Below are positions 22,197-29,614 of a stretch of 64,000 nucleotides of DNA, piece after piece. The notes under the pieces were generated by a model. The model ran no database searches and was not told the DNA's origin. It worked only from the letters and a program-made list of their open reading frames with translations. Location of the stretch: contig JAJFIQ010000028.1 in the NCBI GenBank assembly GCA_021774785.1, forward strand, positions 124,001 to 188,000, in the 5' to 3' direction. This DNA comes from Emcibacter sp. Lineage in GTDB: Bacteria; Pseudomonadota; Alphaproteobacteria; Sphingomonadales; Emcibacteraceae. Each line of letters starts with the position of its first letter. Positions within the stretch are counted from its first letter, which is position 1. The position numbers were made by a program, and so were the translations under genes.

Positions 22197-25094
22197 TTAC
22201 AGTTTAAAGGCAATCCGACCATAGAAGAACCGACCCGGTATCTGATGAATAGTGCCATCAAAGTTATTCAGATCACAAGTCGTACAAAGTGGTGTATCTT
22301 CATCCAAGAAATTCTGCACACCAAATGTGAAAGACACATTCTCTTCCAGAAATTCCGGCGTAAAGGTGAATTGGGCATCCGCATAGAAGACACTGTCAAG
22401 CCGGTTTCCGGCTTCGCCGCTAGAGCAATTCTCGAAGAAACCAAAGTCACCGGTGGTTCCACCACAATCTTCATCAACGCCGCTAATATAACGTCCTGTA
22501 AAACCAACAGTCCATTCATTCCGGGTCCAGTCTAAAAAGAGAGAAGACTTGAATTTAACAAATGCTCTTTCCGGGGAACCCAGTTCAGTACCTGACCGTT
22601 CCGTGATAATAGGAACACCATCAATACCAAGCACTGATTCCGTATAGTTGAACAGATGCGTGTTCACCCACTTGAAACGTATCTGACCCCATTCAGCTTC
22701 CTGTGTCTCGGCAGTAATAGACCAGTCCAGTCCGTTAGTGTCAATTCCGGCTATGTTGGTTAAAATTCCATCGATCCGTGTTACGGTACCTGTAGCTGTA
22801 CGGGTAACATTATCACAGAAAAGCGGATTTAACGTTGCCACACATCCCTCAAGAACATCGGAGGCATTTGGTGCCTGTATGGTGTCATCTACTGATATAT
22901 CATAATAATTAACTTCAAATGTGATACCGGCAAGTCCCATTGATTCCGCAAAAGCTGCTGGGCTATAGGTCGCTCCAAAAGTAAAGGTTTTTGACGTTTC
23001 CGGTGTAAGGTTGGGATTTCCGCCTGTTGTTACACTGATCTGCGGGTTAGGCTGCTGATGATCATCCGGCACTCCAAGAGTGGCGCAATTTGCAGGAACC
23101 GAAGTATTGGCCACGGTATCGCACGGGTCAGTAATCGTACTGTCGAAACGTGATCCGGTGTTGAATAATTCACCAATATTTGGCGCCCGGAATCCCTCTG
23201 ACCAATTGCCTCGGAAGGTGAACTCATCATTGACCTGCCATACGGCACCGGCCTTGAAGACGGTTGAACTGCCCGATGTATTATAATCCGAATATCGAAC
23301 AGCCGCATTTACATCAAAGCTTTTCACAAAGTCCATATCGCCGATAACTGGAATATTAATTTCACCATAAAGCTCTGTTGCTTCGATCCGGCCTGCAGTC
23401 GGGCTTGCCGGAACCCCGGCGGTTTCCCCGCTTGATACAACTGAATCAGGTGTGAACGAACCTATTTCCTCCCGGTATTCAATGCCAAAGGCAACGCCAA
23501 TCGGGCCTGCGGGCAGTTCAACCACCTCACCGGAAACATTGGCCAGTAAATTAAATAATTCCTGACGACTTTCGTCTTTCTGGGTGAAAGTTATAAAATC
23601 CAACATTTCCGGAGTGATGGTTCCGGCGCCGCCAAAGAAGTTAAGCGGTACGCAGCCTGGTATTGCTGCACAAGCATCGGGATCACCAAGGGCATCGCTG
23701 ATCCGGCGGGCATTAAATGCACCGTGCTTTATCTGTGAGGCCTGATTTTGAGAAAATGTTGCCGTCACATCCCAGAAGAAGCTCTTGTCATCAAATTTTA
23801 TTGTACCATCAAGGCTGTTGGAGACATACCATGTATCAACATTTTGCTCAAAGATACGGGGACCGGCCTCAATAGGTCTACGACCAAAGAAGACAATGTT
23901 GCTGCTGTCCAGCTGTACCCCGAACGGGTTGAAAGGCTGATTGGCCGGAACGACAATATTATCCAGCCAGAAACCAGCCCCTGCGTCCGGCCCAAGGAAA
24001 AGAGGCTCCGGAGCCGCCTGACTGACTGACTGACGGTTGTTAAAGGAAGCAATGGCCCGGTAAGTGATATCTTCGGTAAGATCATATTCCCCTTTGATGA
24101 AAACATTCACCCGTTCACTTGGGGTTAACAGCTTATTGAACGGCTGCCAGTTAAAGCGGTCGTTAATGGTGAAATCATGAAAGTCCGAAGTTGGACCAGT
24201 TGGATCAAGAGGGTCAAAGGTTGGAATGGGACCTGTGCCATCATTGGGTGTGATATTCAAACCATCCAGATTGGACCCATCCTGAAACAGGAAACGACCT
24301 TGCGGTGTACCGGAAGATGCCCCGAGATTTTCAATGGGAATGGCAAAAGCGGAAATTTCCCGGTCTTTGGCTTCAACGGCTCCCTGAGAGGTATAACTCA
24401 AGTCAATGATTATACGGCCCTTGTCACTCTGGGCACCAAAACTTAAATCATATTCCTGAGTATCCCCATCGCCGTCTTCATAAAGGCCGTAATAAGCACT
24501 GCCTCTGAAGCCATCATAATCGTCTCTGGTTTTAATATTCACCACGCCTGCGATGGCATCTGAACCATAAATCACCGATGCGCCGTCTTGAAGCACTTCA
24601 ATGGACTTGATAATGCCAACCGGAATCGTATTTAGATCCACAGCCCCTGATACTCCAGATGCCGAAGATCCCCGAATCCACCGCTTACCATCAACCAATA
24701 CAAGAACACGTTTCGCTGAGAGGTTACGCAAATCGATTTGGGACGATCCCGCACCAATTCCTGAACCATCCGGTGGAAAACCAAGGTTGCCGGAGGAGTT
24801 ATTAGATCGGTTATTAGCCGACCCGGATATGGGCAAACGTTGCAGAAAATCCGCGACCGATACTTGTCCGGATTCAGTAATATCATCCGAAGTTAAAATC
24901 TGTACTGGTGATTTCGCTTTGAGTGGGTCTTGACGGATACGCGATCCTGTTACAATTACTTCTTCAAGCGTTGCTTCTTCATCCGCCGCGAAAACCCCTT
25001 GGGCTGGCGTCAGGAGCATCAATCCAAATACTATGGCAGACGCACTGCCAAGATATCTTTGCTTAAGTCGATTTCTTTTCGTTATAGTAAACAT
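22197..25094 (-). CDS. TonB-dependent outer-membrane receptor (965 residues)
   Basis: Outer-membrane active transporter. A long signal peptide ends near PAQGVFAADEE. The TonB box region LEEVIVTGSR follows, then the plug domain (SPVQILTSDDITES, VLVLVDGKRWI, SIEVLQDGASVIYGSDAIAG) and the large barrel ending in RFFYGRIAFKL. The VTGSR plus Asn/Ser-rich plug style (NNRSNNSSGN) is that of the large receptors used for oligosaccharide or peptide uptake in marine alpha- and gammaproteobacteria; no siderophore genes are adjacent. AGAGGAAA precedes the ATG, and two tandem palindromes lie in its 5' leader. The ligand is unknown. Confidence 0.9.
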   Translation of the reverse strand: MFTITKRNRLKQRYLGSASAIVFGLMLLTPAQGVFAADEEATLEEVIVTGSRIRQDPLKAKSPVQILTSDDITESGQVSVADFLQRLPISGSANNRSNNSSGNLGFPPDGSGIGAGSSQIDLRNLSAKRVLVLVDGKRWIRGSSASGVSGAVDLNTIPVGIIKSIEVLQDGASVIYGSDAIAGVVNIKTRDDYDGFRGSAYYGLYEDGDGDTQEYDLSFGAQSDKGRIIIDLSYTSQGAVEAKDREISAFAIPIENLGASSGTPQGRFLFQDGSNLDGLNITPNDGTGPIPTFDPLDPTGPTSDFHDFTINDRFNWQPFNKLLTPSERVNVFIKGEYDLTEDITYRAIASFNNRQSVSQAAPEPLFLGPDAGAGFWLDNIVVPANQPFNPFGVQLDSSNIVFFGRRPIEAGPRIFEQNVDTWYVSNSLDGTIKFDDKSFFWDVTATFSQNQASQIKHGAFNARRISDALGDPDACAAIPGCVPLNFFGGAGTITPEMLDFITFTQKDESRQELFNLLANVSGEVVELPAGPIGVAFGIEYREEIGSFTPDSVVSSGETAGVPASPTAGRIEATELYGEINIPVIGDMDFVKSFDVNAAVRYSDYNTSGSSTVFKAGAVWQVNDEFTFRGNWSEGFRAPNIGELFNTGSRFDSTITDPCDTVANTSVPANCATLGVPDDHQQPNPQISVTTGGNPNLTPETSKTFTFGATYSPAAFAESMGLAGITFEVNYYDISVDDTIQAPNASDVLEGCVATLNPLFCDNVTRTATGTVTRIDGILTNIAGIDTNGLDWSITAETQEAEWGQIRFKWVNTHLFNYTESVLGIDGVPIITERSGTELGSPERAFVKFKSSLFLDWTRNEWTVGFTGRYISGVDEDCGGTTGDFGFFENCSSGEAGNRLDSVFYADAQFTFTPEFLEENVSFTFGVQNFLDEDTPLCTTCDLNNFDGTIHQIPGRFFYGRIAFKL

Positions 25095-25313: not shown

Positions 25314-25342
25314 AAAAAAATGCCGGGTTAAAAAACCCGGCA
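25314..25342 (-). terminator. Strong intrinsic terminator of the candidate sRNA
   Basis: On the minus strand a perfect 9-bp stem TGCCGGGTT/AACCCGGCA with a four-base loop is followed by seven T residues. It lies 191 nt beyond the yqgE stop codon, unusually far for a terminator of that gene. Confidence 0.85.
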
Positions 25343-25478
25343 AGTTGCAAAATATAGGGAGGTTCCATGTCTTAGGGAGAACATGAAACAGCCATACCCC
25401 TCAATGGGAGGAAATAGGAATATGGCAAATTGAATAATTCGGGGAGAATTTTTCAATCAAAGATGTTTCAAACATCTG
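25314..25478 (-). ncRNA. Candidate small RNA with repeated anti-Shine-Dalgarno (CUCCC) loops
   Basis: Reading the minus strand from about 25477, four hairpins follow one another. Hairpin 1 (25461-25477) has 8-bp arms AGAUGUUU/AAACAUCU. Hairpin 2 (25430-25456) has a double stem closing a UCCCC loop. Hairpin 3 (25391-25426) has a GCCAUA/UAUGGC stem with UUUCCUCCC inside. Hairpin 4 (25362-25389) has a 9-bp stem with loop UCUCCCUAAG. A single-stranded CCUCCC and a textbook intrinsic terminator (25314-25342) complete it. A promoter TTGGTT-18-TATATA (25508-25513, 25484-25489) fits a start at hairpin 1. Four copies of the C-rich anti-SD motif in or beside loops are characteristic of several alphaproteobacterial trans-acting sRNA families. 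Read-through from yqgE is the alternative explanation for the terminator. Confidence 0.68.
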
Positions 25479-25532
25479 AGACATATATAGCCATAAGGAT
25501 AAGCTTCAACCAACGGTAAATGGGCAATGCAG

Positions 25533-26138
25533 CTATGCATTGCCTGCATGGGTAGACAGCATTGTTATGTCAACTCCTAGCTTCGCCATAGCACGAGCCC
25601 ATTTCAATTCCAGATCAGTGCGGAATAGCAATTCTTCATCTGCTTCTATATTGAGCCAGCTGTTACGACTAATCTCCTCCTCAAGCTGACCCTTCCCCCA
25701 TCCGGTATAACCTAGGGCCACAATATAGTTCTTCGGCCCGGTTCCCTGTGCGATAGCAGCTAAAATATCAATCGTGGCAGTCAAGGCAATGGTTTCCGAG
25801 ATAATCATAGTCGATTCCTGAACATAATCGGCGGTATGAAGAATGAACCCTCGGCCAATTTCAACCGGGCCACCTGCATGAAGGATAACTTCCTCACCTT
25901 CTTCCTCTTTGTAAGTAGACAGAGGCTCGTCAGAGAAATCTTCTTGATTATAAGCCACATCCAGTTGCTCAAGCAAACCGGGAAAATCAATATTGACCGC
26001 AGAAGAATTTATCACCAGTCCCATGGCCCCTTCTTCGCTATGGCTACAGATATAAATAACGCTGCGATCAAACCGTGGGTCGGTCATACTCGGCATGGCA
26101 AGCAACAATTGACCATCAAGGTAGGTTGCTTTAATCAT
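25533..26138 (-). CDS. yqgE: YqgE/AlgH family protein
   Basis: A 201-residue conserved cytoplasmic protein of unknown function. Family motifs are GQLLLAMPSMTDPRFDRSVIYICSH cut across residues 9-33 (the opening MPxMxDxxFxxxVIYxxxH pattern), AMGLVINS, a GGPVEIGRGFILHT strand (G-G-P-V) and YVALGYTGWGKGQLEEEI near residue 140. Length equals the family norm. It is divergent from the DsbD-N-like gene, a pairing I recall from other alphaproteobacteria. A GGCAATGCA/TGCATTGCC hairpin (25523-25544) spans its stop codon. Confidence 0.92.
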   Translation of the reverse strand: MIKATYLDGQLLLAMPSMTDPRFDRSVIYICSHSEEGAMGLVINSSAVNIDFPGLLEQLDVAYNQEDFSDEPLSTYKEEEGEEVILHAGGPVEIGRGFILHTADYVQESTMIISETIALTATIDILAAIAQGTGPKNYIVALGYTGWGKGQLEEEISRNSWLNIEADEELLFRTDLELKWARAMAKLGVDITMLSTHAGNA

Positions 26139-27139: not shown

Positions 27140-29614
27140 CTAGAAGTTAAATACACCTTCAATACCATATGTCCGTGGCAGGTTAGGGAAACGGGCAATA
27201 GTTCCAAAGAAGTCCCGCAGATCATCAACATATTTGCGTTGATCGGTGAGGTTTCTGCCCCAAAGATAAACTTCCCAACCAGCACTATTGGATATTAACC
27301 CTATCCGTGCATTAATCATGGTCAAGGACTCAATATAATCAAACGGCACCGTAGCGCCGGGGATTGCTCTAAGTGGTGATGATGTATCATTATTCACTGT
27401 TGTGAAATAACCACTTCTGTGCGTTAAGTCCGCACGCAACAATAGAGTTGAATCGATATCTTCCAGTTCATGATAATATTGTGCGCTGAAGGCCGCATTA
27501 AATGTTGTGGCATTGGGCAGACGGTTACCAGAAACATCGGAGCCTCCGGCACCACCTTCAAGAAACTCGTCAAATGTTGCATCAAGCACACCCAAAGATC
27601 CGTTAAAGGTCAAACCATCAGTGGCATGCCATGTGGCTTCCGCTTCAATACCTTTTGTCTGGACTTTCGCCGCATTTGTAATACGGATAGATGTCCGGCC
27701 ACCCCCAAGGTCAACAAACTGGTTTACCTGATAATCATCATAATTGGAAATAAACCCGGCCATATTCAGCTTAATGCGATTATCCATGAAGCTGCCTTTA
27801 AAGCCGACCTCAAAGCTATCCACAGTTTCCTTATCGAATTCAAGACCCGCATTGGCCTTCAATTCATCCGCATTGATGAAATCCAGATTGAAGCCACCAC
27901 TCTTATAACCAGATGAATATTTAGCATAAATATTCACATCTTCGGTCACCGCATACATAAGGTTGATTGACGGTGCAAAGAATTTATCCTGTCTGTCATT
28001 AATCAATGGTTGCGGATTATTTGGGTCATCCCCTGTAGTACCTGTGTTAAAGGCAAGGCCATTTAATTGAATGAATGGCGCGAGTTGAGCAGCTGCTAAG
28101 GGTGAAAAGAAATTAACCGCTGCAATTGATTCAGAGGTAATGTCTGTGCCAATCAGATTGCCTGCATTGTCAGGATTTACCAAATCAGGCAGACCGGCTA
28201 ATGAATCTGGAATAAGCAATGGACGCCCTGAGAAGCGACCATCCGCTGTCCAGTTTACATCTTTGTCTTCGACTGAATAACGCATGCCGAAACCGATTTT
28301 GAATTTATCAGTAACTTCATACACTCCGTTAAAATAGGCCGCATAACTTTTTGTATTTACGATACCGAAGTTAGTTGTTTTATCAACGCCCGGCACACCA
28401 AACCCTAAGGTCTGGCGAACTGTTTCCTGAAATGGTCCGGGTACGCCAAACACATCGAAGAAACCCTCGAAGAAATCCGCTCCAATATTGGCGTCACGTT
28501 GCGTTTGGGCTTCCTGATCATAATAATAAAGGCCAACCATATAGGTAAATTTTTCATCATCCGGGGAAATAAATTGGATTTCCTCAGTAAGCTGTTTATA
28601 TCTATCTGCAAACTTAATGGTCACAATATCCAGTGGCGAATAATCCGTCTGGTTGGTGTAAACCGCATCGGTATCTCGGTATCCCGTAATGGACTTGATG
28701 GTGAATCCGTTATCAAATTCATAGTTGATGTCCACATGACCGCCATAAACATCCCTTTTATCATCAGGATCTTTATCGAAAAATACTTCCCTTTCTTCTG
28801 GGGCGAAAGGGACTGGTACAAGAGCGAATGTATCAGTTAGTGGCTCACCTACCAAGATTAAAGCATCACTGTTCAGGCCATCAAAAGAGGCATTAACTTC
28901 CAACTTGTCGTTGACCTGAAACCGAATTTGCGCACGGTAGGACAAAGTATCAACCTGCATAAGGTCGTTACCTGTAAAGCTATTCAAGACATAACCGTCC
29001 CGATCAGCCTTGGCGATTGTGAATTTGGTGAAGACCTTATCGGAAAGCGGAATATTCACCATACCCTTAAATTCTGTATAACCCAGATTCCCCGCATCAG
29101 CAGTAACCTGACCGGCAAATTCTTCATCTGGTTTTTTGCTCACCAGATTAATCGCGCCAGCCACCGTGTTCTTACCGAACAGGGTTCCCTGCGGACCACG
29201 GAGAACCTCAACCCGTTCCAGATCAAGCAGTTCTTGGTTTAGGGACGGTGATTGCCCCATATAAACGCCATCCACATAAACACCCACGCGAGCATCAAAG
29301 CCAATATTCCGGCTCTGGGCACCAACACCACGAATGGTCACGGTTGAGCGGAAGTCGTTGGACTGGCTGATTTGCAGGTTTGGAATATATTCGGCGATGG
29401 ATTTCAAATCACGAACGCCTGTCTGGTCAATCTGTTCTGAGCCCATGGCTGACATTGAGATCGGAACATCTTTCATACGTTCGGATCTTTTTGTTGCCGT
29501 CACAACAATGTCTTCAATAATAAAATCTTCGTCAGCGGCTGATGCTGTGAAGCTGGTCGCAGATAATGCTGTGGATAGAGCAATTATCGACGAGAATGTG
29601 GTGTATTTTTTCAT
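27140..29614 (-). CDS. TonB-dependent outer-membrane receptor (824 residues)
   Basis: Signal peptide ending near SFTASAADE, TonB box IEDIVVTATKRSE, and a plug with PISMSAMGSEQID, LQISQSNDFRSTVTIRGVGA and LERVEVLRGPQGTLFGKN. A barrel follows, ending PRTYGIEGVFNF with the terminal Phe of outer-membrane proteins. The VTATKRSE and RGPQGTLFGKNTVAGAIN motifs place it with the family of broad-substrate receptors frequent in sphingomonads and marine alphaproteobacteria. TTAGGGAGAGATC precedes the ATG. No dedicated uptake genes are adjacent except the divergent sodium symporter gene 206 nt away. Ligand unknown. Confidence 0.9.
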   Translation of the reverse strand: MKKYTTFSSIIALSTALSATSFTASAADEDFIIEDIVVTATKRSERMKDVPISMSAMGSEQIDQTGVRDLKSIAEYIPNLQISQSNDFRSTVTIRGVGAQSRNIGFDARVGVYVDGVYMGQSPSLNQELLDLERVEVLRGPQGTLFGKNTVAGAINLVSKKPDEEFAGQVTADAGNLGYTEFKGMVNIPLSDKVFTKFTIAKADRDGYVLNSFTGNDLMQVDTLSYRAQIRFQVNDKLEVNASFDGLNSDALILVGEPLTDTFALVPVPFAPEEREVFFDKDPDDKRDVYGGHVDINYEFDNGFTIKSITGYRDTDAVYTNQTDYSPLDIVTIKFADRYKQLTEEIQFISPDDEKFTYMVGLYYYDQEAQTQRDANIGADFFEGFFDVFGVPGPFQETVRQTLGFGVPGVDKTTNFGIVNTKSYAAYFNGVYEVTDKFKIGFGMRYSVEDKDVNWTADGRFSGRPLLIPDSLAGLPDLVNPDNAGNLIGTDITSESIAAVNFFSPLAAAQLAPFIQLNGLAFNTGTTGDDPNNPQPLINDRQDKFFAPSINLMYAVTEDVNIYAKYSSGYKSGGFNLDFINADELKANAGLEFDKETVDSFEVGFKGSFMDNRIKLNMAGFISNYDDYQVNQFVDLGGGRTSIRITNAAKVQTKGIEAEATWHATDGLTFNGSLGVLDATFDEFLEGGAGGSDVSGNRLPNATTFNAAFSAQYYHELEDIDSTLLLRADLTHRSGYFTTVNNDTSSPLRAIPGATVPFDYIESLTMINARIGLISNSAGWEVYLWGRNLTDQRKYVDDLRDFFGTIARFPNLPRTYGIEGVFNF

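Follow-up and report, generated by a model that had tools for sequence, protein, structure and literature searches.

A conserved four-hairpin RNA downstream of yqgE in Emcibacter, a candidate counterpart of AbcR1 under a VtlR-type promoter

Is the stretch between yqgE and the next gene on the minus strand of this Emcibacter genome only a spacer, or does it encode an RNA, and if so, what might switch that RNA on and what might it act upon? The window (the whole stretch of DNA analysed, 64 kb) contains at minus strand 25480-25314 an unannotated small RNA (sRNA) locus, with yqgE upstream and a TonB-dependent receptor gene downstream. Comparative evidence supports a real, conserved RNA here. Our preferred reading, to which we give a probability of roughly three in four, is that it is a VtlR-activated, probably Hfq-assisted anti-Shine-Dalgarno (anti-SD) trans-acting sRNA of about 165 nt, with its own promoter, which would lower the translation of several mRNAs. 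The parts of the RNA, with the evidence for each, are:

25314-25480, minus strand: sRNA, about 165 nt, with a putative start (fold, covariation, model alignment)
25461-25477, minus strand: hairpin 1, no anti-SD motif (fold and covariation)
25428-25458, minus strand: hairpin 2, loop UCCCC (fold and covariation)
25391-25426, minus strand: hairpin 3, loop CCUCCC (fold and covariation)
25362-25389, minus strand: hairpin 4, loop CUCCC (fold and covariation)
25357-25362, minus strand: single-stranded CCUCCC ahead of the terminator (motif count in aligned copies)
25314-25342, minus strand: intrinsic terminator, 9 bp stem at 25342-25321 with T7 (fold, terminator, covariation)

The original prediction, of four hairpins and a strong terminator on the minus strand, is borne out by the fold: the minimum free energy is -57.5 kcal/mol, against -32.4 +/- 4.0 for shuffled sequences (z -6.3), and none of 200 shuffles equals it. 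Stem lengths differ from those first given (8, 5+5, 6 and 9 bp), being 7, 7+5, 11 and 10 bp, with 9 bp in the terminator. The four anti-SD CUCCC motifs are also there, three in hairpin loops and one single-stranded before the terminator; in order they read CUCCCC, CCUCCC, CUCCC and CCUCCC, with YUCCC cores from RNA positions 35, 71, 102 and 120. At least four YUCCC occur in just two of 2554 stepped 167-nt segments (64 kb, both strands), and both overlap the sRNA.

Could hairpins have piled up by chance in an AT-rich spacer? No point in support of this was found, and it is refuted by the fold z-score of -6.3, by covariation and by matches across the window's family (f1), leaving it next to no probability. 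A DNA search of 60 genomes, the window's own included, found the sRNA in 29: 28 of the 32 f1 genomes and one outside the family. The four f1 genomes without a match are 53-67% complete, and the LysR match (see below) is absent from them too. A second copy lies on another contig of the window's genome (locus L002), with the same promoter, four hairpins, motifs and terminator.

In a 36-row model alignment, which was fitted to the structure, both sides have changed with pairing kept at 25 of 45 pairs; 178 cells carry a both-side change, against 50 +/- 6 after shuffling, and 95.1% of cells are paired, against 35-49% when the structure is slid. In an unfitted MAFFT alignment of 40 rows, 11 of the 26 predicted pairs have changed on both sides. 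Such changes were found in every counted pair of hairpins 2 (7/7) and 3 (10/10), and in one of the 11 pairs of hairpin 4, which is near-constant in sequence. The stems are thus strongly covarying in relatives and the CUCCC motifs largely kept, the kind of conservation that the original prediction had looked to for its support: YUCCC persists in 23 of 36 rows in hairpin 2, 34 in hairpin 3, 30 in hairpin 4 and all 36 in the single strand. The 13 rows missing the hairpin 2 motif are the 12 aligned rows of genus g5 and one copy of L047, so that the number of motifs varies among copies. One alignment (A3) was put aside, since it included opposite-strand partial matches to the palindromic terminator.

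The same rows bear on a coding alternative, in which the RNA would be a short mRNA and the AUG of hairpin 1 the start of a small protein, 24 aa long in the window's copy. The 5' end does carry GATG in 34 of the 36 rows, but the frames that follow run for anything from 2 to 48 codons, or stay open (three rows), with no family-wide sequence. The hairpin 1 AUG opens no conserved frame, and this reading, very improbable, was rejected.

If the RNA is real, what drives it? The region upstream contains the following:

25484-25489, minus strand: -10-like TATATA (CTATATA), by eye CTATA or CTATAT in most copies
25508-25513, minus strand: -35-like TTGGTT, which by eye differs from copy to copy (types TGGT or TACTCAT)
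25526-25538, minus strand: VtlR/LsrB box GCATAGCTGCATT, or GCAT-N3-TG-N3-T, a predicted site (consensus from PMC8844928 and PMC7486931; these and all other papers are cited from excerpts)
25530-25549, minus strand: dyad ATGC-N7-GCAT-NN-CTG (containing T-N11-A), a candidate VtlR/LsrB operator that overlaps the yqgE stop region
25533-26138, minus strand: yqgE (YqgE/AlgH family), ORF, NCBIfam NF001268 at 252.8 bits against a cut-off of 216

The TTGGTT-18-TATATA proposed as a promoter is present as such, at 25513-25508 and 25489-25484, although a generic promoter scan does not list it. The dyad and box, at 25549-25526, fall outside the 25314-25478 of the original prediction, from which any link to VtlR or AbcR was absent. 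GCAT-N3-TG-N3-T is the VtlR/LsrB operator described at -61 to -49 of the S. meliloti abcR1 promoter (PMC8844928, PMC7486931); in the window it spans -58 to -46 relative to the assumed start at 25480. The dyad pattern has one match in the 64 kb, against 0.05 expected by chance, and six genome-wide, of which two fall at the sRNA copies, against none for a reversed control pattern. Among 40 sRNA copies (family f1 plus G044), TGC-N7-GCA is found at -67 to -70 in 36, and AGCYATGC-N7-GCATRGCTGCATTG is seen by eye upstream of most. The strict box is present in 24 of the 40; it is missing in 16, including 11 of the 13 in genus g5, which is a point against the preferred reading.

The gene upstream is a LysR regulator for 31 of these copies, 26 of which also show trxB, and yqgE for nine; the window copy follows yqgE, and the sibling at L002 shows the order trxB-LysR-sRNA. 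These positions help with another possibility, that the RNA arises chiefly by processing of the yqgE mRNA at its 3' end, with no independent transcript, in the manner of SorX, its nearest Rfam model, which R. sphaeroides makes by processing the 3' UTR of ompR-1 (PMC6238624, PMC8625941). The sRNA start is indeed only 52 nt past the yqgE stop, on the same strand. Against this, 31 of 40 copies, the sibling included, follow LysR, and there a comparable -10 and the box keep their spacing: recurrence of box and promoter beside different genes argues against plain yqgE read-through, as the recurring promoter does against RNase E processing from an mRNA 3' UTR, and because of the LysR majority a yqgE-only origin was set aside as quite unlikely.

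The adjacent LysR finds its best PDB sequence match in 9HH1 (E 2e-82; the next is at E 9e-33), the structure of A. tumefaciens LsrB (PMC11975290). The gene order in A. tumefaciens is trxB-vtlR-abcR1-abcR2 (PMC7486931). In S. meliloti and R. leguminosarum, named Rhizobiaceae loci that were taken from a plasmid collection, we find trxB-LysR-[two ar15 RNAs]-ArsR with the same dyad and box, and in an unannotated Shinella record LsrB is likewise followed by two ar15 RNAs, again with this dyad and box. The sibling thus occupies the AbcR1 position, and the window copy has an AbcR1-type promoter elsewhere; the window copy is a dispersed sibling under the same VtlR-type box. Published accounts of the regulator differ: for S. 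meliloti, one describes LsrB as without control over AbcR (PMC7486931), and another as indispensable for AbcR1 (PMC8844928), a disagreement that counts against the preferred reading; VtlR/LsrB is said in one to occur in many Alphaproteobacteria (PMC7486931), and LsrB in another to be unique to Rhizobiales (PMC11975290). The VtlR of the window's genome (L002:1736-2635) contains no cysteine, nor do those of most f1 relatives; one or two are present in L041, L042 and L043, and three in the LsrB of L162-L164. Lacking cysteine, the window genome's own VtlR cannot take its signal from the LsrB cysteine redox switch, which likewise counts against the preferred reading, and that switch is not general.

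AbcR sRNAs, which bind Hfq and repress ABC-transporter mRNAs, are a major element of metabolic control in rhizobia and brucellae. AbcR1/AbcR2 (alpha-r15, RF02345; Rhizobiaceae, Brucellaceae) have in common with the RNA described here the trxB-vtlR/lsrB-sRNA order (at the sibling locus), the VtlR box and dyad at similar distance, a CUCCC (M1) in a hairpin loop, and two copies per genome (PMC8844928, PMC7486931, PMC5461406, PMC3712013). They differ in having three hairpins, where the window RNA has five stem-loops and four anti-SD motifs, in the M2 motif GUUCCC, missing from the window RNA, and in a second copy in tandem with abcR1 rather than dispersed to yqgE. The ar15 model (gathering score 40 bits) finds nothing in the window, whether at gathering or with E<=10, against 97-127 bits for positive controls in L162-L164. 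The converse search, of the real AbcR RNAs in L162-L164 with model R2 (trained on 17 f1 sequences only, the window's among them), also found none at E<=10; both failures to match are points against the preferred reading. Since neither model matches, M2 is missing and there are five stem-loops, the window RNA is not filed as ar15: the best reading is of an AbcR1 counterpart by promoter, and for the sibling also by position, but not of a sequence member of that family. Common descent of the window RNA and AbcR from one RNA is plausible. The tandem arrangement of abcR1/abcR2 is paralleled by tandem sRNA copies after VtlR at four loci, three in L155 (G312) and two each in L039 (G019), L046 (G018) and L047 (G016).

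No Rfam family reached its gathering score anywhere in the 64 kb in a covariance-model scan, and the suggestion of a new family is therefore true as to Rfam. The nearest models are SorX (RF02784; 31.8 bits in the window, gathering 46.6) and SorY (RF02651; 24.7 bits, gathering 111), both of Rhodobacteraceae. They resemble the window RNA in a 3' module of hairpin-ACCUCCCU-terminator; SorX as modelled spans no more than hairpin 4 and the terminator. Repeated anti-SD motifs are also found in the CcsR/cuckoo RNAs, and CCUCCUCCC, the motif of NfeR1 (alpha-r14) and the CcsR/cuckoo group, is missing from the window RNA. No ar14 match to the window was listed at E<=10; NfeR1 shares its repeated anti-SD motifs with the window RNA (PMC8844928). 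The alpha-R8 model (suhB, RF00519) gives 17 bits against a gathering score of 41. Its members (MmgR/suhB; SisA-D in Caulobacter) resemble the window RNA in a CCUCCCU upstream of the terminator and in anti-SD regulation, and differ in their usual neighbour, FGase, and, for SisA-D, in having no conserved promoter motif (PMC12559287).

How far does the pairing of regulator and RNA extend? Wherever an f1 genome has a VtlR match (28 genomes), an sRNA copy lies 74-1167 nt downstream of that match. Over the 60 genomes, R2 matches at E<=0.01 in 43, of which 15 are outside f1: in the 11 of these at E<=9e-5 the match invariably follows VtlR on its own strand, at a distance of 82-193 nt, and the four weaker ones (E from 6e-4 to 0.0054) do not adjoin VtlR, which counts against the preferred reading. 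The window itself scores 141.7 bits with R2 and 125.6 with a second model, R3, matches which hold by construction, as it is in both training sets.

VtlR homologs were found at E<=1e-60 in 166 of 289 genomes sampled from the class. The best 30 class VtlR loci, the window genome's own included, gave an R2 match in 24 (weakest E 0.005; 145 kb searched) and none in six (L148-L151, L154, L160). R3, trained on 45 sequences that include class loci collected for adjoining VtlR, matches 133 of the 289 genomes at E<=1e-4. Among the matches listed (to E 1.3e-6) there are 104 genomes outside the training set, a count that is not fully independent, as sisters of training genomes were kept in it. A VtlR position is among the matches listed for 86 of the 104, and not for 18. 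Within the 86, again among the matches listed, the R3 match is 35-1476 nt downstream of VtlR on the same strand in 66; in the other 20 it is 1.7-5.6 kb downstream in eight and elsewhere in 12. Six R3 matches (L173, L175, L178, L187, L189, L191) are not directly beside a listed VtlR; these loci gave no Rfam match at gathering score, and are possibly dispersed siblings.

Twenty further VtlR loci of the order (L112-L131), chosen as loci without an R2 match beside VtlR and partly from genomes outside the 60-genome search, yielded only three R2 matches at E<=0.01 (L119, L124, L127), a further point against the preferred reading. By eye, the dyad plus CUCCC is present in seven others (L114, L115, L121, L125, L129-L131) and was not seen in ten (L112, L113, L116-L118, L120, L122, L123, L126, L128). 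Long C-rich hairpin loops (CCUCCCCUCCC and similar), with the same dyad, can be seen by eye after VtlR in other families of the order (L114, L115, L125, L127, L129-L131); only L127 among these matches R2, weakly. The 680 nt that follow LysR showed neither dyad nor CUCCC in Methylobacterium (L165), Tistrella (L166) or Azospirillum (L169). Two class searches were empty: LsrB at E<=1e-120, an overly strict threshold, and ar15, with matches in 0 of 190 genomes but also in 0 of 14 controls, and hence uninformative.

Rfam models at gathering score passed one sRNA in 60 mostly VtlR loci, a SorX after VtlR (L153, 47.0 bits). In eight named loci six ar15 RNAs passed, in three Rhizobiaceae, and one SorX each passed in Paracoccus (L167, 52.6) and Pseudorhodobacter (L168, 52.4), following a VtlR-like gene. 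A regulator homologous to LsrB, together with its operator and a neighbouring anti-SD sRNA, recurs in many other Alphaproteobacteria, which suggests that the pairing of VtlR/LsrB with an sRNA is older and wider than described. We lean slightly towards a broader proposal, in which VtlR/LsrB and an adjacent multi-loop anti-SD sRNA would form an ancestral alphaproteobacterial module: the four-hairpin RNA, the AbcR1 of Rhizobiaceae and the SorX/SorY type of Rhodobacterales would be lineage forms of a single VtlR-driven RNA, with operator and gene order preserved and a body changed so far that its sequence is no longer recognisable, and with VtlR in f1 also driving a small repeat protein (see below). 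If this is true, many unannotated genomes gain a predicted sRNA with a named activator, AbcR and SorX-type RNAs have one origin, and the module is an example of an sRNA changing its body while keeping its switch. A literature search found no paper joining SorX with AbcR, VtlR or LsrB; for Emcibacter and sRNA it returned a single paper, on a sea-anemone microbiota.

We infer transcription of the sRNA, VtlR binding, Hfq use and target repression, in the following sequence. The LysR regulator VtlR/LsrB, encoded elsewhere beside the sibling sRNA, would bind the dyad, which lies some 60 nt ahead of the start, and, once bound, activate transcription from the sRNA's own promoter. The RNA would expose four CUCCC stretches, three of them in hairpin loops and the last in the unpaired segment ahead of the terminator; assisted by Hfq (an hfq gene is present in the window's genome), these could pair with purine-rich ribosome-binding sites and so reduce how much several mRNAs are translated, which is how AbcR1 acts in rhizobia. 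The claim of the original prediction that the RNA blocks ribosome sites on many mRNAs is a deduction from the motifs and from AbcR.

The same motifs might instead serve a decoy or sponge, titrating purine-rich sRNAs or a protein rather than blocking mRNAs. C-rich sRNAs can have purine-rich sponges as partners, as SisA-D have CrfA in Caulobacter; in that pair, however, it is the C-rich partner that itself regulates mRNAs (PMC12559287), and AbcR, the positional counterpart, represses mRNAs (PMC5461406). We consider a sponge unlikely, and return to the anti-SD repressor.

Which mRNAs might it repress? AGGGAGG-N4-9-ATG occurs at 23 sites in the genome, against seven for the reversed motif, and two of the 23 are the sRNAs' own complement. 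Sites were compared across three genomes (21 from the window's own, all 38 non-sRNA sites of G011, and 21 of 23 non-sRNA sites of G005, in 20 stretches); they open an ORF of at least 30 aa in 14, 24 and 10 cases, respectively. Only nuoF has AGGGAGG before its start in all three (L241, L266, L305; NCBIfam NuoF, E 1.5e-33 over the first 70 aa). It is a candidate target, in a survey too weak to name targets; that no other such gene is shared by the three genomes counts against the preferred reading. TonB-dependent receptor genes lie at 22197-25094 and 27140-29614 on the sRNA's strand, the former directly downstream of it; by eye there is no strong SD complementarity ahead of 25094.

A second candidate member of the regulon is a small repeat protein of the xxYxFMDLLxDKGF type, the query for which had no Pfam match at E<=1. 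TGC-N7-GCA is found within 320 nt before the start in 22 of 30 copies (L327-L356), at -120 to -173 in all but one of the 22, against a background of 0.2 per 320 nt at the same loci, which suggests a second VtlR-regulated gene. In A. tumefaciens, VtlR activates both abcR1 and atu1667, which encodes a small hypothetical protein (PMC7486931). The window's genome has two copies of the repeat protein, one without the dyad (C11:223594) and one with it (G000:C21:260987-261196, L338).
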